In this document: in pieces, positions 2,222 to 63,318 of the stretch
Numbering within the stretch: the first letter of the stretch is position 1
How the letters are laid out: every line of letters begins with the position of its first letter
Assembly (NCBI GenBank): GCA_913057905.1
Contig: CAJXPB010000002.1
Span: 124,001 to 188,000 of the forward strand
Reading direction: 5' to 3'
DNA: 64,000 bases
Source: an uncultured Pseudomonadota bacterium
Lineage (GTDB): Bacteria > Myxococcota_A > Bradymonadia > Bradymonadales > Bradymonadaceae
Notes under the pieces: generated by a model
Told to the model about the DNA's origin: nothing
What the model saw: only the letters and a program-made list of their open reading frames with translations
Database searches by the model: none
Made by a program: the position numbers and the translations under genes

Positions 2222-2394
2222 ATTCAGTCTCCAGAATCAGAGTACACGAAAGAGCGCATAGATACTGCCGCGCCGAGTTGTCGACTTCTTCCCGCATCTT
2301 ATCGTATTCGGAGCCACATTCAAACCGCTTCCTATGGAAGCTGGCACTAAATTGATCGAATAAGCATGAGTCAACCAACATTGACACGGTTGTC

Positions 2395-2673
2395 ATGAGC
2401 CAAGCACGAGCAGAACTGAAGATCACGGGACACGTTCAGGGTGTCACCTATCGGGCGTCGACCCGGCGGCAGGCCCAGGAGCGCGGGCTTTACGGCTGGG
2501 TCGAAAACCAGCCCGACGGCAGCGTCGAGGCGGTTGTCGAGGGTTCCAAAGACGCGATCGAGGGGCTGGTCGAGTGGGCCCACACCGGACCGAAGCGCGC
2601 CCGGGTCGAGTCGGTCGAAGTCGACTGGACCGAGCCGACCGGGGAGTTCTCTAGATTCAAGGTTCACCGGTAA
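2395..2673 (+). CDS. acyP: Acylphosphatase
   Basis: 92 residues, the normal size for acylphosphatase, which hydrolyses carboxyl-phosphate bonds of small acyl phosphates in the cytoplasm. The signature GHVQGVTYR near residues 12-20 contains the phosphate-binding loop and the catalytic Arg; the conserved GWVENQPDGSVE with the catalytic Asn follows around residues 34-45. No clear Shine-Dalgarno precedes the ATG; instead a 5-bp inverted repeat (TGACA/TGTCA) runs up to the A of the start codon. It ends 9 bases before the helicase gene and is probably co-transcribed with it. Confidence 0.92.
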   Translation: MSQARAELKITGHVQGVTYRASTRRQAQERGLYGWVENQPDGSVEAVVEGSKDAIEGLVEWAHTGPKRARVESVEVDWTEPTGEFSRFKVHR

Positions 2674-2682
2674 GGAAGACGA

Positions 2683-5214
2683 TTGGCTGACGCCCTACCC
2701 ATCGACAAGCAGCGCGGGGAGTTCGAGGAGAGCCTCCGAGCCGACCGGCCGACCATCGTGGTGGCGCCGACGGGGTCGGGAAAGTCCACGCGACTTCCCC
2801 TGTGGATGGCCGAATCACTCGATGGGCCGATCCTGGTCGTCGAGCCCCGACGTGTCGCCTGTCGGTCCCTCGCCCAGTACCTGGCGAAGGGCCGCGGAGA
2901 GGAGGCCGGCCAGTCGATCGGGTACCGGGTGCGGTTTGACGATCGTACGTCGGATGAGACCGAGGTCATCTTCGCCACCACCGGCGTGGCATTGCGGATG
3001 CTCGGCGGTGCCGATGGGGGAGACGACTGGCCGTTTGCCGGCGTCCTGGTCGACGAATTTCACGAGCGCGGGTGGGAGGTCGACCTCATCGTCGCCACCC
3101 TGCGCGCTCATCAGGACGACCCCGCCTTCGGCCCCTTCGTCCTCACCTCGGCGACCATCGAGGCGGAACGGCTCGCCGAGGAGCTGAACGCCGACCTGGT
3201 GCGCTCCGAGGGGCGCACCTATCCCGTAGACATCTCCTACGCCGGGGAGCCGAAGGCACCGACCTCGCGCGGCCTGGAGGGCCGGGTCAAAGACGCCGTC
3301 CAAGAGGTCTGCGAGAGCCCCGACGACGACGGCGGCGACATCCTGGTGTTTCTGCCCGGCAAAGGCGAGATCTCGGACTGCAAGGGCGCCCTCGGCGGGG
3401 TGGCAAACACCCACAACCTGGATCTGGTCGAAGTCCACGGCCGGCTGCCGCCTCACAAGATGGCGAAAGCCTTTGACGATCAGGACAAACGCCGGGTCTT
3501 TCTGGCCACAAACGTCGCCGAGACCTCGGTGACCCTGCCCGGCGTCACGACCGTGATCGACAGCGGATTGGTCAAACAGATGATCCATCGCGGCGGCGCC
3601 TCGGCGCTGGCGTTGGTGCCGACCTCCGAGGCATCGATGGACCAGCGCGCCGGCCGCGCGGGGCGCGTACAACCGGGACGCTGCGTGCGGCTTTGGAGCG
3701 AGCGGTTTCGACCCAAGCCGTCGACCCCACCGGAGATCGAGCGCATCGAACTGGACGAACCGGTCCTGCAGGCGGCGATGTGCGGCCTCGATGGCGAACG
3801 TTTTGACCGCGCGGGTTGGCTGACCGAACCGCCGGAATTCGCGGTGGAGAATGCCCGCCAACGCCTACGCGACATCGGTGCTCTGGATGAGGACAACGAG
3901 CTGACCGACAAGGGAGAGCGGCTCGGGGAGCTGCCGGTCGATGCCCACGACGCCCGGATGTTGATCGGCGTGACCGACGAGATGGCCGGGCCGATGTGCG
4001 ACCTGGTGGCGCTGCTTCAGCGTTCCACGAATCTGATTTTGCCCATGGGTGCCATACGAGGCGACACTCACCGGGTGCAGCAGAATCGAAACGACCTGTT
4101 TAAGGGCTGCGATGACGAGGTGACCGCGCAACTGACCGCCCTGCGTGAGGGCCGTCCGCGCGAGCACGGCCTGCACCGCTCGGCGTGGGAGGAGGCAAAA
4201 AAGATCTCGTCGAGCCTGCGTTCGATGGTCGATGCCCCGGCGCCCGATCCCCTCAGCGACGACCGGCCCCTGCCCAAACCGGGGCGCATGGCCGAGTACC
4301 TGCTCGATCGAATCCCCGAGTCGGCCTTCGTGCTCAGGGAGCGCGCGATGGGCTACCGCGACGACGGTCAAGCCAGCTTCGGCCGCTCGGAGCCCTGGGG
4401 AAACGGAGATATCGAGGTGTCGGTCTACCCCTTCGAGTCGCCGGTCCAGGAGCGCGAACGCGACGAGAAGCTGACCCATCCGACGGCTGGGTTGATCTTG
4501 AGTCTGTTCTGGACCGGCGACGGCTCCAAGGGCGTCCACGGCATCGGCAGCATGTTGCTGCCCGCCGACGAGTCCCAACTGGCCGACGCGGGCCTCGGCG
4601 AGCCCGAGATCTCGAGGCCCAAGCCGAAGGGCCACGCCGACGCGCCCCGTGTCGTGGCGACGGTCTCCAGAACCTACGCCGGCCGGACGCTCAGGACGAC
4701 CAATCGCGAGCTCGACGGCCGGCCGCTGTGCGAAGCCGTTGCCGAGCTGACCTTCGAAGGTCGCATGTTCCGCGACGCGGGCGACCGGATCCGTGACGAC
4801 CTGCACCTGTGGGACGTGTTGGCGCGCTGGCCCGCCGAGCGGCGTTGGTGGGGCGAGGTCGAGCCGCCCACGGAGCCCGAGGAGTGGTTGACCGAGCACC
4901 TCTGGGAGCTCGGCCTGCGCTCAAACGACGACCTGATGCTCCTGGAGCCCGACGACTTGCGACCCGACCTGGCCGACCACTTTGGCATGAACGACCATCA
5001 ACTGGCCGAGTGGCGCGAGAAGTTCCCCCGGCTCTGGAGCCACATGGGCCGCACCTACCGGTGCAAGGTCCAGCCGAGCACCCAGAAGGTCATTTTGGAG
5101 CCGGCCGACAAGGCGGCGCGCAAGGGAGACGACCCGCAGGCGATGCACGTGCCCCGATTCGAGGGATTCAGCGTCTACTACCGCAACGCCAGCCGGGTCG
5201 TCCCCGTGACGTGA
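2683..5214 (+). CDS. hrpB: ATP-dependent RNA helicase HrpB
   Basis: 843 residues, full length for the HrpB branch of DEAH-box helicases. Walker A is APTGSGKST (residues 28-36), motif II is DEFHER (124-129), motif III is SAT (156-158) and motif VI lies in QRAGRAGRVQPG. The C-terminal region (GDRIRDDLHLWDVL to the end) matches the HrpB-specific domain. The start is a TTG preceded at a good distance by AAGGAAG that overlaps the acylphosphatase stop region. HrpB acts in RNA processing in some proteobacteria; its exact substrate is generally unknown. Confidence 0.9.
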   Translation: MADALPIDKQRGEFEESLRADRPTIVVAPTGSGKSTRLPLWMAESLDGPILVVEPRRVACRSLAQYLAKGRGEEAGQSIGYRVRFDDRTSDETEVIFATTGVALRMLGGADGGDDWPFAGVLVDEFHERGWEVDLIVATLRAHQDDPAFGPFVLTSATIEAERLAEELNADLVRSEGRTYPVDISYAGEPKAPTSRGLEGRVKDAVQEVCESPDDDGGDILVFLPGKGEISDCKGALGGVANTHNLDLVEVHGRLPPHKMAKAFDDQDKRRVFLATNVAETSVTLPGVTTVIDSGLVKQMIHRGGASALALVPTSEASMDQRAGRAGRVQPGRCVRLWSERFRPKPSTPPEIERIELDEPVLQAAMCGLDGERFDRAGWLTEPPEFAVENARQRLRDIGALDEDNELTDKGERLGELPVDAHDARMLIGVTDEMAGPMCDLVALLQRSTNLILPMGAIRGDTHRVQQNRNDLFKGCDDEVTAQLTALREGRPREHGLHRSAWEEAKKISSSLRSMVDAPAPDPLSDDRPLPKPGRMAEYLLDRIPESAFVLRERAMGYRDDGQASFGRSEPWGNGDIEVSVYPFESPVQERERDEKLTHPTAGLILSLFWTGDGSKGVHGIGSMLLPADESQLADAGLGEPEISRPKPKGHADAPRVVATVSRTYAGRTLRTTNRELDGRPLCEAVAELTFEGRMFRDAGDRIRDDLHLWDVLARWPAERRWWGEVEPPTEPEEWLTEHLWELGLRSNDDLMLLEPDDLRPDLADHFGMNDHQLAEWREKFPRLWSHMGRTYRCKVQPSTQKVILEPADKAARKGDDPQAMHVPRFEGFSVYYRNASRVVPVT

Positions 5215-13125: not shown

Positions 13126-13198
13126 ACGCTAAACAGTAAACAGGGTCGGGGGTTCGGCAAGGTTGAGCGAACGAACGCAGACCGATTTTCGCACTCCG

Positions 13199-13445
13199 GT
13201 CACCCCGCGCTCCCTGACGGTCGCATCGGGGGGATCGCTGCGCGCCTGCGGCGCGCTGCGACTGACGATTTTCGTGCTGGCGGGACGTTCAGCGCAGCAA
13301 TCGATCCTGGTACTTGCGGGGGTTTTCGAGCACGAGCGCCGTAGGCTGATGGGGTGCGTGCTTGCGGGGTTTTCAGCCGGCTGGAGATGCCGGCACGGGG
13401 GTTGGTCGATTTCAGAATGATGGTCATCCCGGTCTCGCGCCGCGC
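13199..13445 (+). repeat. Dispersed intergenic repeat family 1, copy A
   Basis: About 245 bp between clpB and the PKD lipoprotein gene. Recognisable modules in order: CTCCCTGACGGTCGCATCGG, the hairpin GCGCGCC-TGC-GGCGCGC (13240-13256), TTCAGCGCAGCAATCGAT, TTTTCGAGCACGAGC, GTAGGCTGATGGGGTGCGTG, CTTGCGGGG and a CCGGCTGGAGATG-like end, then a GATGGTCATC segment. The same modules in the same order occur at 16845-17190 (opposite strand) and 59202-59465. The short motif GTGCTTGCGGGG or a variant recurs inside the element. It is non-coding as far as can be judged. Confidence 0.85.
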
Positions 13446-13510
13446 CAGCGCGGCGCATCGAACCGGGCGATCACGCGGCGTGTCGCGCCGCAGGCGCGCC
13501 GCCGCGGCCT
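13437..13510 (-). repeat. Two GC-rich inverted repeats downstream of PKD lipoprotein gene
   Basis: Two strong palindromes lie after the stop of the PKD gene on the minus strand: a 9-bp stem with a 2-base centre (13437-13456) and CGCGCC-GCA-GGCGCG (13484-13498). The second is the same hairpin that forms the core of repeat family 1, here in inverted orientation, so this may be a truncated copy. They could terminate the PKD transcript; no U tract is visible. Confidence 0.55.
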
Positions 13511-13523
13511 CCAACGCCCAGAT

Positions 13524-16500
13524 CTAACTCGCCGTAAAGCTGATGGTCGTCGTATCCGTCGCGCCTTCGGGATCCGTGACCGTGACTTCGAAGGTATAGC
13601 TGCCGGAGACATCCGGTGTGAAGTTCGTCGAGGCCATCGAGGGCGATGAAAGGGTCGCCGACGAGCCCGACGGAGCCGTCGTCACCGACCAACTGTAGGT
13701 CAGCGTGCCGCCTTCGGGATCCGTGCTACCGGAGGCGTCCAGGGTCAACTGGGTTCCGGTGGGTTCGCTGTTGGACGGCGAAATCGTCGCCGAGGCGGTC
13801 GGCGCCTGGTTGGTCGCAGTGAAGCTGATCGTCGTGCTGTCGGTCGCGCCTTCAGGATCCGTGACCGTGACCTCGAAGGTGTAGCTGCCGGAGACATCGG
13901 GCGTGAAGTTCGTCGACGCCATCGTGGGCGACGACAGGGTCGCCGACGATCCAGACGGAGCCGTCGTCACCAACCAACTGTAGGTCAACGTTCCGCCTTC
14001 GGGATCCGTGCTGCCGGACGCGTCCAGGGTCAATTGGGTTCCGGTGGGTTCACTGTTGGATGGCGAGATGGACGCCGAGGCGGTCGGCGCCTGGTTGGTC
14101 GCAGTGAAGCTGATCGTAGTGCTGTCGGTCGCGCCCTCGGGGTCCGTGACCGTGACTTCGAAGGTGTAGCTGCCGGAGACATCCGGCGTGAAGTTCGTCG
14201 ACGCCATCGACGGCGATGAAAGGGTCGCTGACGAGCCCGACGGGGCCGTTGTCACCGACCAACTGTAGGTCAGGGTGCCGCCTTCGGGATCCGTGCTGCC
14301 GGAGGCGTCCAGGGTCAATTGGGTTCCGGTGGGTTCGCTGTTGGACGGCGAGATCGTGGCGGAAGCGGTCGGCGTTTGGTTGTTGGCCTGAATCGTGACC
14401 GTGGTCGACGCCGTCGCGTTGTTCGGGTCGCTGGCGATTAACTCGACCGTGTAGCTGCCAGCGACGTCCGGGGTGAAGTTCGACTGCGCCGAACTCGTGC
14501 TCGAGAGCATCGCCGATGAGCCCGAGGGCGTGCTGGTCAGATTCCAGGTGTAGGAGATGGTGCCACCCTCGGGGTCGGTGCTGCCGGAGCCGTCCACGGT
14601 CACCTGGGTACCGGTCGCGACCGACGATGACGGTGAGACCGATATCGACGGGGTCGGCGGCTGGTTGGCATTGACCTCGACCCGCTTCGACGCGAGCGCG
14701 GTCTCAACCCCATCACTCACCGATACGGTCACGATGTAGTCGCCCGTGGCGTTGACGGTGAGTGTGGCGTTGGCCGAATTTGCGTTGCTCAATGATGGCT
14801 GGTCGGAACTCGACAGACCCGATGGCTTGGCGGTGATCGACCACTGGTAGGTCAGGGTTTGACCCATGTCGGGGTCGGAGGCAGACGCGCTGAGGCTGAC
14901 CGTGTCCGAACCACCCGAGGGCAGCACAACCGTCGAATCCGACAGCGGCTGCACGGTCGGCGCCGTGTTCCCGGAGGGCGAACCCGTCGCGTAGAAGATG
15001 ACCGACGTGGTGTCGGTGTCCATGCCGTCGTCGACGGTCAATTCGACCTCGTAGGCGCCCTCGACATCGGGAGTAATCGTGGAACTCGGCCCGCTGGTCG
15101 AACCGAGCGACGCCGTCGACCCGGTCGGCTGGGCCAGAAGCGACCAGGTGTAGGTCAGACTGGCGTTCGAGCCGTCGGGATCGTTGCTCGACGATCCGTC
15201 CAGATTCAGTTGTGTGCCGGTCGCCGCGGGGCTGGAGATCGACGCGATCGACGCCGTCGGCGGCTGATTGACGTCGGGATTCACGGTGATCTCGACCGTG
15301 TCCATCGCCGTCATGCCGTTGCCGTCATCGACGGTCAGCGTGGCAGTAAAGGTTCCGGTGGTCTGGGGCGTGAACGTCGGGTCGACGACCGATGGATCCG
15401 AGAGGGTCGCCGACGAACCGCTCGGGCCGGACAAGCTCCAACTGTAGGTCAAATTGTCGCCGTCGGGATCGCTGCTGCCGCTTCCATCGAGGGTTACCTG
15501 ATCACCCTGGACGACGGTCTGGTCGGCCCCGGCATCGGCGGTGGGTGCGCGGTTCGGCTGCTCGACGGTCACCTCGGCCGTAGCGCGGAAGCCGTCGAGC
15601 TCGACCAGCACGGTCACATCGCCGACGGCTTGACCGGTAATCATCCCCGTATCGTCGACGCTAAGGATCGACGACGAGCCCGAGATCCAAGCAGACGGCC
15701 GTCCGCAAGGCGTCGATGTGTCGGTGTACGCAGCCTCGCTGCAGAGCGGATCGCCGGCGTCATTCAAGGGTACGGCATTCAACTGCGTCGACTCCCCGAT
15801 GAGCACCGTCGTCGGCATATTCGGCTCGATGCTGAGGCCGGCGACCGCGGACTGTTCGACGATTACCGTAGCGGTGGCCGAACGTCCCTCGGAGGAAACC
15901 GTTATTTCCGTGGCACCTGCACCGCTGGCGGTCACAACGCCCTGATCGTCGACCGACGCGACGCCCGACTGGGCGCTGCTCCAGTCGAAGTCTCGGTTAT
16001 CGAGCTCATTCCCCTCGGCATCGTAGGCAGTCGCCTGCAGCGTTTCAGTCGTACCGACCGTCAGAAAGACCGTTTGCGGGGTAAGCTCGACCCGCGAAAC
16101 GGGGACCGTGACGACCGAAAGCGAGACCTGCGCGGATACGTCGCCGACGCTGGCGGTCACCGTTGTGTCGCCGGCCATCAACCCTTCGATCTCGGCGACG
16201 GTCCCGGAGTCGCTGGTATTCGTGACGCTCGCCAGGTCGCCGCTCCCGACGTCCCAGCTCACATCGGTCTCCGGCGTGATGACCTCTCCGCGGGAGTTGA
16301 TGACCCTGGCCTCCAGCGAAGCGGTGCGCCCCACACCGACCTCGACCATCTCCGGCGAGGCCAAAATATTCCTGATCGTGGGACCGGTATCGCCGGCATC
16401 GTCCATCCCACCATCGTCCATGCCGCCGTCGCCCATACCACCGTCGGTTTCATCGGGCGCGACCTGACAGCGGCCCTGGACGCAGATTTCATCCAAAAAA

Positions 16501-16613
16501 CAGTCCCGGTTCGTCTCGCATTTGTCGTCGGAAAATTCGGGCGCACAGCCCGCCAAAAGCATCCCGGCGACGAGGGCGAACAACGACGATACGATCCAGT
16601 AGCGCTTACTCAT
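13524..16613 (-). CDS. Ig-like / PKD-repeat surface lipoprotein
   Basis: 1029 residues. The signal peptide ends in lipobox LLAGC (Cys near 23); then a Cys-rich CETNRDCF...CVQGRCQ segment and a low-complexity Asp/Gly/Met linker. Next come Big_2-like Ig domains (about residues 85-350; repeated T-x-V-x-V-S patterns) and seven PKD/REJ-like domains (about 353-1029), each opening N-x-x-P-T and containing DGSGSxDPxGG-L-TYSW. The last three units (95 residues, 285 bp each) are almost identical. An outer-surface adhesive or scaffold role is inferred. Confidence 0.88.
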   Translation of the reverse strand: MSKRYWIVSSLFALVAGMLLAGCAPEFSDDKCETNRDCFLDEICVQGRCQVAPDETDGGMGDGGMDDGGMDDAGDTGPTIRNILASPEMVEVGVGRTASLEARVINSRGEVITPETDVSWDVGSGDLASVTNTSDSGTVAEIEGLMAGDTTVTASVGDVSAQVSLSVVTVPVSRVELTPQTVFLTVGTTETLQATAYDAEGNELDNRDFDWSSAQSGVASVDDQGVVTASGAGATEITVSSEGRSATATVIVEQSAVAGLSIEPNMPTTVLIGESTQLNAVPLNDAGDPLCSEAAYTDTSTPCGRPSAWISGSSSILSVDDTGMITGQAVGDVTVLVELDGFRATAEVTVEQPNRAPTADAGADQTVVQGDQVTLDGSGSSDPDGDNLTYSWSLSGPSGSSATLSDPSVVDPTFTPQTTGTFTATLTVDDGNGMTAMDTVEITVNPDVNQPPTASIASISSPAATGTQLNLDGSSSNDPDGSNASLTYTWSLLAQPTGSTASLGSTSGPSSTITPDVEGAYEVELTVDDGMDTDTTSVIFYATGSPSGNTAPTVQPLSDSTVVLPSGGSDTVSLSASASDPDMGQTLTYQWSITAKPSGLSSSDQPSLSNANSANATLTVNATGDYIVTVSVSDGVETALASKRVEVNANQPPTPSISVSPSSSVATGTQVTVDGSGSTDPEGGTISYTWNLTSTPSGSSAMLSSTSSAQSNFTPDVAGSYTVELIASDPNNATASTTVTIQANNQTPTASATISPSNSEPTGTQLTLDASGSTDPEGGTLTYSWSVTTAPSGSSATLSSPSMASTNFTPDVSGSYTFEVTVTDPEGATDSTTISFTATNQAPTASASISPSNSEPTGTQLTLDASGSTDPEGGTLTYSWLVTTAPSGSSATLSSPTMASTNFTPDVSGSYTFEVTVTDPEGATDSTTISFTATNQAPTASATISPSNSEPTGTQLTLDASGSTDPEGGTLTYSWSVTTAPSGSSATLSSPSMASTNFTPDVSGSYTFEVTVTDPEGATDTTTISFTAS
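13527..14381 (-). repeat. Three near-identical 285-bp tandem repeats inside the PKD gene
   Basis: The segments starting at 13807 and 14092 repeat with an exact period of 285 bp and differ by only scattered bases; the third unit runs to the stop codon. Each encodes one 95-residue PKD domain (SPSNSEPTGTQLTLDASGS...). The other four PKD domains of the protein are clearly more diverged, so these are recent in-frame duplications. Confidence 0.9.
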
Positions 16614-16700
16614 TACAGCCTCACAACATGTCTGCAGATCACGTGTCGTGGGGACTATAACACCCGCAGGGGCAGCCTTCTAGCTATCCAGTTTCACGGC

Positions 16701-16803
16701 ACACGTGAGCGCGGGCCGCGTAGGACGTACGAGGTACGACGGGGCCGCGGACGACGTGAGCGCGGGCCGCGTAGGACGTACGAGGTACAACGGGAAGCCG
16801 CGG
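16701..16803 (-). repeat. Intergenic repeat family 2, two tandem 51-bp units
   Basis: Two units with a 51-bp period, each containing GTGAGCGCGGGCCGCG then TAGGACGTACGAGGTAC, followed by a partial third (GTGATCGCGG at 16809). The core is found again, on the other strand, at 63241-63312. It lies between the PKD lipoprotein promoter region and repeat family 1. Confidence 0.8.
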
Positions 16804-16844: not shown

Positions 16845-16967
16845 ACCCCGCAAGCACGAAGATCGGTTGCTGCGCTGAACGTTACGCGAGCACGGAGATC
16901 GACAGTCGCCGCGCGCCGAAGGCGCGCAACGATCACCCCGTTGCGACCGGATGGGAGCCCGGGGGTG
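16845..16967 (-). repeat. Dispersed intergenic repeat family 1, partial copy B2
   Basis: A second, shortened unit in tandem with B1 on the minus strand. It starts with GGGCTCCCATCCGGTCGCAA, has the hairpin GCGCGCC-TTC-GGCGCGC (16911-16927 on the plus strand), TTCAGCGCAGCAACCGATC and ends at CGTGCTTGCGGGGT; the second half of the element is missing. Confidence 0.82.
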
Positions 16968-17190
16968 ACCATCTCCAGCCAGCTGCCCTCTTCGCAAGCA
17001 CGACCCCAGCGGGCCCAAGAAATCCCGCAAGCACGCACCCCATCAGCCTACGAAGCTCGTGCTCGAAAATCCCCGCAAGCACGAAGATCGGTTGCTGCGC
17101 TGAAGGACTCGCGAGCACGGAGATCGACAGTCGCCGCGCGCCGAAGGCGCGCAGCGATCCCCCCGATGCGACCGGTAGGGAGCCCGGGGA
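16968..17190 (-). repeat. Dispersed intergenic repeat family 1, copy B1
   Basis: A nearly complete unit on the minus strand that begins six bases after the etfA stop codon. Module order equals copy A: GGGCTCCCTACCGGTCGCAT, hairpin GCGCGCC-TTC-GGCGCGC (17136-17152 on the plus strand), TTCAGCGCAGCAACCGATC, CGTGCTTGCGGGG, TTTTCGAGCACGAGCTTCG, TAGGCTGATGGGGTGCGTGC, GGGCCCGCTGGGGTCGTGC and GCTGGCTGGAGATGG. Confidence 0.87.
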
Positions 17191-17195
17191 TGTCT

Positions 17196-18170
17196 TCAGT
17201 CGCCCACGCCGAGCTTCTTCAGTTTCTCGTTGAGCTCCGGCACGACCTCGAAGGCGTCCTGAACGAGGCCGTAGTCGGCGACGTCGAAGATCGGCGCCTC
17301 GGGATCGGTGTTGATGGCCACGATGAACTTCGAACCCTTCATCCCGGAGAGGTGCTGGATGGCTCCGGAGATGGCGATGGCGACGTACAGTTCCGGGGCC
17401 ACGACCTTTCCGGTCTGGCCGATCTGCCAGTCGTTGGGGGCGTAGCCGCTGTCGACCGCCGCGCGGCTGGCGCCGACGGCGCCGCCGAAGAGGTCGGCGA
17501 GTTCCTCGAGCATGTCGAAGGCTTCGGCGGATTTGAGCCCGCGGCCTCCGCTGATGACGACGTCAGCGTCGGTCAGCTCCGGGCGCTCGCTCTTTACGAG
17601 CTCGAGGCCCAGGTGCTCGACGTTGTCGAAGGTGGGCACGTCGACATCGACGGACTCGATGGGGGCGGCGTCGCCCTCGGGCGAATCGTCGAAGTCGGTG
17701 GTTCGGACCGACACGATCTTGGTGGGCGTGGTGACCTCGACGGTCTTGATGACCGAGCCCGACCAGATCGGTCGCCTGAAGCGAAGCGTGTCGCCGTTGG
17801 TGACGTCCATGGCGTTGGTGACCATCCCGGCCTCGAGCGCTTGCGCCACGCGGGGCAGGTAGTCGGAGCCCTGGGAGCTGGCCGGGCCGCAGACGATCTC
17901 GGCGTCGACCTGCTTTGCCACCTGAGCCACGACGGGCGCCCAGGTCTCGGCGGTGTAGGTCTCGAATTCCGGGGCTTCGGCGGTCAACACCTTGTCGACG
18001 CCCCGCTTGGCGACGGCATCGGCGATGTCGCCGGCGTCGTCGTCGAGGACCAGCGCGTAGACCTCGCCGCCGATAGCGTCGGCGGCGTCCCGGGCAAAAC
18101 TGATCGTCGGGAAGGTGCTGGAGCGAAGCTTGCCGGCCTGAATCTCTGCTACAACGAGTACGTTACTCAT
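17196..18170 (-). CDS. etfA: Electron transfer flavoprotein alpha subunit
   Basis: 324 residues. With EtfB it forms the soluble FAD-containing heterodimer that takes electrons from acyl-CoA dehydrogenases to ETF:quinone oxidoreductase. The C-terminal FAD domain is intact: [41 protein letters not shown] and [19 protein letters not shown]. It lies 46 bp after etfB in the TetR-etfB-etfA operon, so fatty-acid-linked regulation is expected. Confidence 0.96.
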
Positions 18171-58952: not shown

Positions 58953-59056
58953 CGGTCACCGTCCGTGGTTTCAGATATCTGTCGTCGCTGCGCCATCCAT
59001 GGCGCGGGCGGAGATCATAGGTCGTTCGGGGGATCGGCGGCAAGGGGAACTGCGGG

Positions 59057-59200
59057 CTTCCTGCCGCGACGCGGGAGGGTATGCGTGCTTGGGACACCCC
59101 CGGGCTCCCTGCTGCGACGCGGGAGGGTATGCGTGCTTGGGACACCCCCGCGCTCCCTGCTGCGACGCGGGAAGGTATTCGTGCTTAGGACACCCCCGGG
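59057..59200 (+). repeat. Three tandem 48-bp repeats
   Basis: The segment TGCGACGCGGGAGGGTATGC + GTGCTTGGGACACCCCC recurs at 59066, 59114 and 59162 with an exact 48-bp period and few substitutions. The unit contains the GTGCTTG motif and the CTCCCTGC start of repeat family 1, and runs directly into copy C. Confidence 0.85.
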
Positions 59201-59201
59201 C

Positions 59202-59465
59202 TCCCTGCCGGTCGCATCGGGGTCAGTGTTGCGCGCCTGCGGCGCGCGGCGACTGCTGATTTTCGCGCTGGCGGAGGGTTCAGCGCAGCAATCGATGTGC
59301 GTGTTTGCGGGGGTTTTCGAGCACGAACTATGCGGGTGTATGGGCTGCGTGGTTGCGGGGTTTCTGGGGCTCGCTGGCGTCGTGTTTGCGGGGTTTCCAG
59401 CTAGCTGGAATGCCGGCAAGGGCTAGCTTTGGCGTTCGCATGATGATCACCTCAATCTCGCGTTC
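59202..59465 (+). repeat. Dispersed intergenic repeat family 1, copy C
   Basis: Module order equals copies A and B1: CTCCCTGCCGGTCGCATCGG, hairpin GCGCGCC-TGC-GGCGCGC (59231-59247), TTCAGCGCAGCAATCGATG, GGTTTTCGAGCACGAAC, GTTGCGGGGTTTC, CTGGCGTCGTGTTTGCGGGG, TTTCCAGCTAGCTGGAATGC, and the end segment ATGATGATCACCTC. It lies between the large hypothetical gene and the TOPRIM nuclease gene. Confidence 0.85.
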
Positions 59466-59486
59466 ACTCCGTTGAAGGTGAATTGC

Positions 59487-63109: not shown

Positions 63110-63245
63110 AAGTCGCAAACGTCCAACCTGAACGTCCAACGTAAACGAGCTCCGTCCAACCTGAACGTCTTTCGTAAACGTCCAACGTAAACGAGCTCCG
63201 TCCAGCCCGAACGTCTCTCGTAAACGTCCAACGTAAACGTCCTAC
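63110..63245. repeat. 46-bp tandem array built of 13-base modules
   Basis: The plus strand alternates GTCCAACGTAAAC, GTCCAACCTGAAC and GTCTTTCGTAAAC; GAGCTCCGTCC recurs at 63147 and 63193 (exact 46-bp period). On the minus strand the units read TTGGACGTTTACG. No coding capacity is apparent. Confidence 0.8.
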
Positions 63246-63312
63246 GCGAGACGCGGCCACGTGATTGGCGGCCCCGTCGTACCTCGTACGTCCTACGCGC
63301 GACGCGCCAACG
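63241..63312 (+). repeat. Intergenic repeat family 2, second locus
   Basis: Contains CACGTGATTGGCGGCCCCGT and CGTACCTCGTACGTCCTACG, the reverse complement of the unit at 16701-16750 over about 30 bases without mismatch. It runs from the 46-bp array to the transporter gene's end. Confidence 0.8.
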
Positions 63313-63318
63313 CGGGCC

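Follow-up and report, generated by a model that had tools for sequence, protein, structure and literature searches.

The repeat at positions 13198 to 13507 of the window (the whole 64,000-nucleotide stretch analyzed here) belongs to a real, species-specific, hairpin-built dispersed family that is most probably served by IS200-like TnpA paralogues. We interpret the family as a REP/BIME-like non-autonomous element, most probably spread in trans by small HUH-Y1 transposases (TnpA) encoded elsewhere in the genome.

Modular build and hairpin pairing

Copy 1, delimited by its sequence and a genome search, is a full unit of about 310 bp on the plus strand (13198 to 13507). It displays the unit plan of the family: hairpins A, B, and E, together with a linker in which GTGCTTGCGGGG is abundant, make up the first half, and hairpins C and D the second. 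Hairpin B, the GC stem of the original prediction, was located by a stem search at 13240 to 13256; hairpin E (GCGACTG ... TTCAGCGCAGC) lies at 13258 to 13298 and is recognized from the sequence and from G-C/C-G/T-A pair changes elsewhere in the family. Hairpins C (13428 to 13467) and D (13474 to 13507), both from the own-genome search and a pairing test, complete the unit, all on the plus strand. The second site carries one and a half units on the opposite strand (16845 to 17193), as predicted. Here, copy 2a (16970 to 17193, minus strand), a first half with linker, begins 2 bp past the stop codon of an etfA-like gene (17196 to 18170, minus strand), and copy 2b (16845 to 16968, minus strand), found by own-genome and profile searches, is a truncated first half in tandem to it; the stem search places their B hairpins at 17136 to 17152 and 16911 to 16927, respectively, on the minus strand. 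Copy 3, about 280 bp long on the plus strand (59190 to 59470; sequence, genome and profile searches), joins a first half with linker to the decayed start of a second half, with hairpin B at 59231 to 59247 (plus strand, stem search). Direct repeats of 48 bp at 59053 to 59208 (plus strand, repeat family D9) correspond to the start of module A and continue into copy 3.

The modules are collinear, as the original prediction held: 13203 to 13372 is 82% identical to 59194 to 59363 and 88% identical to the inverted 17020 to 17189, and the tandem halves 16846 to 16967 and 17071 to 17192 share 92% identity. The predicted length of 220 to 280 bp, however, is too short, with copy 1 reaching about 13507 through two more hairpins; multi-hairpin units across the family measure about 170 to 350 bp. 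The motif GCGCGCC-N3-GGCGCGC occurs four times in the window (at 13240, 16911, 17136, and 59231) and in none of 100 shuffles. The window also holds a 285-bp tandem repeat in four units (13529 to 14683), within a PKD-domain lipoprotein gene (13524 to 16613), and another repeat family (unit length, about 51 bp; CGTCGTACCTCGTACGTCCTACGCG...) at 16698 to 16794 and 63118 to 63318, which is both tandem and dispersed and adjoins several copies of the first family.

In an alignment of 23 first halves, 94.4% of the cells of the B stem and 97.1% of those of the E stem are paired, and at one position of the E stem, 16 copies have G-C, 5 have C-G, and 1 has T-A. The B stem had been called invariant, which is true of the four stems in the window but not of the genome: among the 23 aligned copies, one reads GTGCGCC/GGCGCAC and one has a C-G to G-C swap, with pairing kept in both, while one shows a G-T wobble and 9 lack the outermost pair. 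Its loop varies as described, over a range that extends beyond TGC and TTC to TCC, TAC, TTT, and GAG. The second-half alignment comprises 27 rows, of which 25 are dispersed copies and 2 are pieces adjoining TnpA genes; of the 30 loci L028 to L057, 5 were left out. Two adjacent positions of the inner C stem alternate in these rows, one between A-T (12) and C-G (10) and the other between G-C (14) and C-G (9). The rows contain 24 double-change cells, compared with 9.8 on average after shuffling and with 0 of 500 shuffles reaching 24, although such counts are open to inflation by kinship among copies. Slid structures pair in only 30 to 49% of cells, compared with 93.4% for the real structure, which together with the compensatory changes indicates that the hairpins are maintained as hairpins. 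The B, E, and C stems are preserved as paired hairpins through compensatory changes. RNAalifold itself returned almost no covariation term for either the first-half or the second-half alignment, which we count against the overall interpretation. Hairpin A alone is weakly supported, with one of its four pairs failing in 20 of 23 copies, in part from the misaligning of four longer variants. The single-strand folding z score is only -1.9 for copy 1 of the window and -3.8 for copy L012.

Dispersal in the genome and absence from relatives

Searching the genome for further copies, as the original prediction proposed, was productive. The first half is found at 27 places at an E value of 0.001 or below (40 of 42 candidates scored) and the second half at at least 40 places (40 of 89 candidates scored). 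A first-half profile run on 61 loci fetched from the genome gave 29 matches, or 26 sites once matches within 400 bp were merged. For gene context, we removed matches shorter than 60 bp and any site no farther than 600 bp from a second one, leaving 44 de-duplicated sites, of which a crude gene finder places 43 between genes and one inside a called ORF. The description as a dispersed, mostly intergenic repeat family is upheld. The window has no match to Rfam 15 at gathering score, and a known structured RNA family was rejected on this ground. By eye, we found neither a target duplication nor a fixed cut site at the copies, which we count against mobilization by TnpA.

Proximity to the 3' end of a minus-strand gene, also noted in the original prediction, applies to the three window sites (gene 3' ends at 13524, 17196, and 59487) but is not a general rule. 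Among the 39 sites with both neighbors called (one of the 44 lies within a called ORF and four lack a called neighbor on one side), 14 are convergent, 17 co-directional, and 8 divergent. This placement bears on an alternative that we consider unlikely, namely, that the copies are host-selected structures (terminators, mRNA 3'-end stabilizers, or protein-binding sites) spread by recombination or gene conversion, with nearness to TnpA genes incidental. Several copies begin 2 to 57 bp past a stop codon and convergent sites outnumber divergent ones, as such a role would favor; the existence of eight divergent sites speaks against it. The copies are also concentrated on two contigs, which again fits host-selected structures: C2 and C3, 19% of the genome, hold 19 of the 26 first-half sites and 26 of the 40 second-half places (binomial probabilities, 3e-9 and 3e-10). 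These crowded contigs (the window is in C2) carry none of the six Y1 transposase genes of the genome, a distribution that we count against an involvement of TnpA.

Copies do not extend to relatives. Among 39 genomes searched, one of them of the same genus, only the own genome yields more than short, weak matches; five genomes matched in all, the own genome and four with one or two pieces of 37 to 59 bases. The repeat family is species-specific, and its lack in the genus relative argues against host-selected structures. In the same-genus genome G001 and the same-family genome G008, the region 3' of the etfA-like gene contains a hairpin and a T run (a terminator) and no repeat, and a related lipoprotein gene follows the etfA-like gene after about 200 to 255 bp; the corresponding gap in the own genome is 582 bp and includes the repeat. 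The downstream lipoprotein is 41% identical to that of G001 over 63 amino acids (E value, 7e-10) and 32% identical to that of G008 over 271 amino acids (E value, 3e-32). The etfA locus is a single case of a syntenic site that has the element in one genome and lacks it in others, marking a gain or loss whose mechanism it does not reveal. That the copy occupies the place of the relatives' terminator is a further point in favor of a host structure.

IS200-like transposase genes and their flanking repeats

The genome encodes six Y1_Tnp genes. Five of them specify IS200-like proteins of about 130 amino acids that form one clade (support, 100/98) and pass the IS200/IS605 TnpA model NF033573 (57.9 to 76.7 bits; cut-off, 55); one, P0001, matches the solved ISHp608 TnpA. 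The other copies are 42 to 55% identical to P0001, and near-identical gene copies were not found in the genome. The motif DH[IV]H is present in four of the five, all five have Y---Q--RH or IH, and WA, WG, or WS stands where WQ is expected. In one TnpA, L059 (C1:1033572-1033961), HIQ replaces the HUH motif, so this enzyme may be inactive.

Family pieces lie within about 170 bp of five of the six Y1 genes and are missing at the sixth; the search for a mobilizing transposase yielded a candidate. They flank the C7, C11, and C1 genes on both sides and the C4 and C6 genes on one. The layout is clear for C7, whose gene sits between direct copies of about 300 bp with 81% identity, and for C11; it is partial for C1 and C4 and reduced to a single 30-nt match at C6. 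In the repeat-rich window, 9.6% of random gene-sized positions have a piece no more than 170 bp away, a control made conservative by some flanking gene DNA in the query; against it, the binomial chance of five in six is about 5e-5.

We compared the 1,200 bp before and after each TnpA gene, taking 60 bits or more as a pass and leaving out as non-testable any locus with less than 300 bp on a side. Five truncated loci of set 1 had been dropped beforehand. Flank similarity was found in 16 of 26 testable loci of set 1 (relatives' loci and own genes) and in 50 of 71 testable loci of set 2 (80 loci from a wider search). Because overlapping loci of both sets are counted once (L119/L092, L120/L094, L121/L102, and L168/L103 are the same genes, with zero branch lengths, and L111/L115 are one gene), this amounts to 63 of 92 distinct TnpA genes across phyla, compared with 2 of 102 control positions, which come from the own bacterial family only and do not span the further phyla of the tested genes. 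Of 80 random positions in three same-family genomes, 2 passed, and these share a single 12-kb stretch; none of 22 in the window did. In a further control, 300 mixed flank pairs reached at most 45.5 bits. The control stretch L229 (G005:C1:5500001-5512000) is the sole one with strong repeats around a random position, of up to 357 bp at 93%. Among the five own TnpA genes, only that on C7 passes at 60 bits, which, like the lone short match at C6, we count against the TnpA reading.

In the relatives, each TnpA has repeats of its own on both sides, and their sequences differ between genomes. We examined the dispersal of six flank repeats outside the own genome. Those of two TnpA genes in G008 occur at 17 and 24 places, that of Nostoc sp. 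LEGE 12450 at 26, and that of Planctomycetota BJ19 at 12. The repeats of Rhodopirellula solitaria (11 of 14 places at the gene) and Rhodopirellula sp. Ww632 (4 of 4) are local, and these two of six also weigh against the TnpA reading. The R. solitaria locus (L189) contains a tandem array of about 234-bp units with the flank repeat, at 2256 to 4282, adjoining the TnpA gene and with little dispersal. At the Nostoc locus (L191), the flank repeats of about 66 bp are inverted (2321 to 2495 and 2918 to 2982), and the TnpA has the subclass 1.2 motif.

The recurrence of both-flank repeats of unrelated sequence at TnpA genes in other genomes is what incidental placing, as assumed for host-selected structures, fails to explain. 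It also bears on a second and still less probable alternative, in which the copies would be MITE-like remnants of another insertion sequence and the TnpA genes would only land in repeats. The long units (about 170 to 350 bp) and the presence among them of other repeats, the 51-bp unit for instance, suit such remnants. However, the repeats that flank TnpA genes on both sides vary from gene to gene and from genome to genome, and cognate repeats fit this better than shared targets do.

We favor mobilization by TnpA, to which the copies, the kept pairing, the repeat-less genus relative, the syntenic site without the repeat, and the TnpA genes beside copies all point at the sequence level. In this view, the non-autonomous element consists of GC-rich hairpin units (A+B+E and C+D), with linkers between them, and resides between the genes of one species. 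TnpA would recognize the unit hairpins on single-stranded DNA, cut and rejoin near a hairpin foot, and carry units, alone or joined, to new places between genes. The mosaic build of the units may result from several paralogous TnpA proteins with differing repeat types, and copies just 3' of stop codons may secondarily act as transcript 3' ends.

Relation to known REP and Y1 transposase systems

The original prediction that the repeat is not a REP holds in the strict sense. A canonical GTAG REP was rejected, as GT[AG]G within 0 to 2 nt of the foot is present in 0 of 23 to 27 copies per hairpin (A, B, E, C, and D) on the element strand; on the other strand, it occurs once at B (23 copies) and once at E (22 copies). 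A canonical RAYT partner was likewise rejected, with four of the five own proteins scoring 20 to 26 bits against the RAYT model NF047646 (cut-off, 80) and the fifth giving no match. In a wide sense, however, the layout corresponds to a REP/BIME system: dispersed, mostly intergenic units with conserved hairpins, copies of which flank a Y1 transposase gene (the REPtron layout, clear at C7 and C11). Like REP/BIME/REPIN elements and their TnpA-REP (RAYT), the family consists of species-specific hairpin units, single and joined, beside a Y1 gene and dispersed elsewhere; unlike them, its units are long and multi-hairpin and have no GT[AG]G foot, and its transposase fails NF047646. The five proteins resemble IS200/IS605 TnpA in model and structural match, but references with an adjacent TnpB group apart from them in a tree with many open forks, and the dispersed unit is without a transposase gene.

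TIRYTs, according to De Nocera et al. (2013; PMC3733652), are Y1 genes between long inverted repeats with GGGGWSAS, some of them dispersed. This motif occurs 46 times in 106 kb near the present genes and 15 times in 104 kb farther out, a threefold difference in density, and lies near 31 of 89 genes counted, 2 of them own. Quentin et al. (2018; PMC6006769), who divide TnpA-Y1 proteins into subclasses, assign the majority of TIRYTs to subclass 2.1, which is marked by Y---NP and an extra domain at the C terminus; neither was seen in the own TnpA proteins.

Subclass 1.2 is described in the same paper by DH[IV]H, WQ, and Y---Q--HH, low copy number, a REP entry of "no," and a distribution mainly in Cyanobacteria and Bacteroidetes; the automatic REP search reported there required a GT[AG]G foot. 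The own proteins share its IS200-like core, DH[IV]H (in four of five), Y---Q, low copy number, and divergent copies, but they have flanking repeats where that subclass is listed as REP-less, and no WQ. The motif Y---Q--HH, present in 74 of 80 set 2 loci and 14 of 19 relatives, is found in 0 of the 5 own proteins, whose Y---Q--RH or IH makes them at best a divergent side branch of subclass 1.2 as described there; in the tree, where many forks are open, the four references, none of them a published subclass 1.2 sequence, separate from the own clade. In the open-access literature, we found nothing on subclass 1.2 repeats or on such repeats in Bradymonadales.

A broader proposal, on which our judgment is evenly balanced, is that IS200-like subclass 1.2, although listed as REP-less, forms a separate REPtron lineage that is widespread among Myxococcota, Planctomycetota, Verrucomicrobiota, Acidobacteriota, and Cyanobacteria. 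Each gene would lie between long hairpin repeats specific to it, lacking a GTAG foot, and would spread them as non-autonomous elements; the window family would be one example, a mosaic to which five paralogous transposases contribute. The main new point would be the existence of cognate repeats for a transposase branch listed as having no REPs, which offer a likely DNA substrate for this branch of HUH transposases. This suggests that REP-like systems are not limited to short GTAG hairpins and class 2 transposases, and with many natural transposase/repeat pairs, the co-evolution of single-strand transposases and their hairpins becomes approachable.

The closest published parallel is class 3 of Quentin et al., which is reported to have "atypical" structures in high copy number, up to about 600 copies in Solibacter. 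The own system differs from the NHVH, YV[VI][AENY]EQ, and CnGA foot of that class and shares with it atypical hairpins that both surround the transposase gene and are dispersed.
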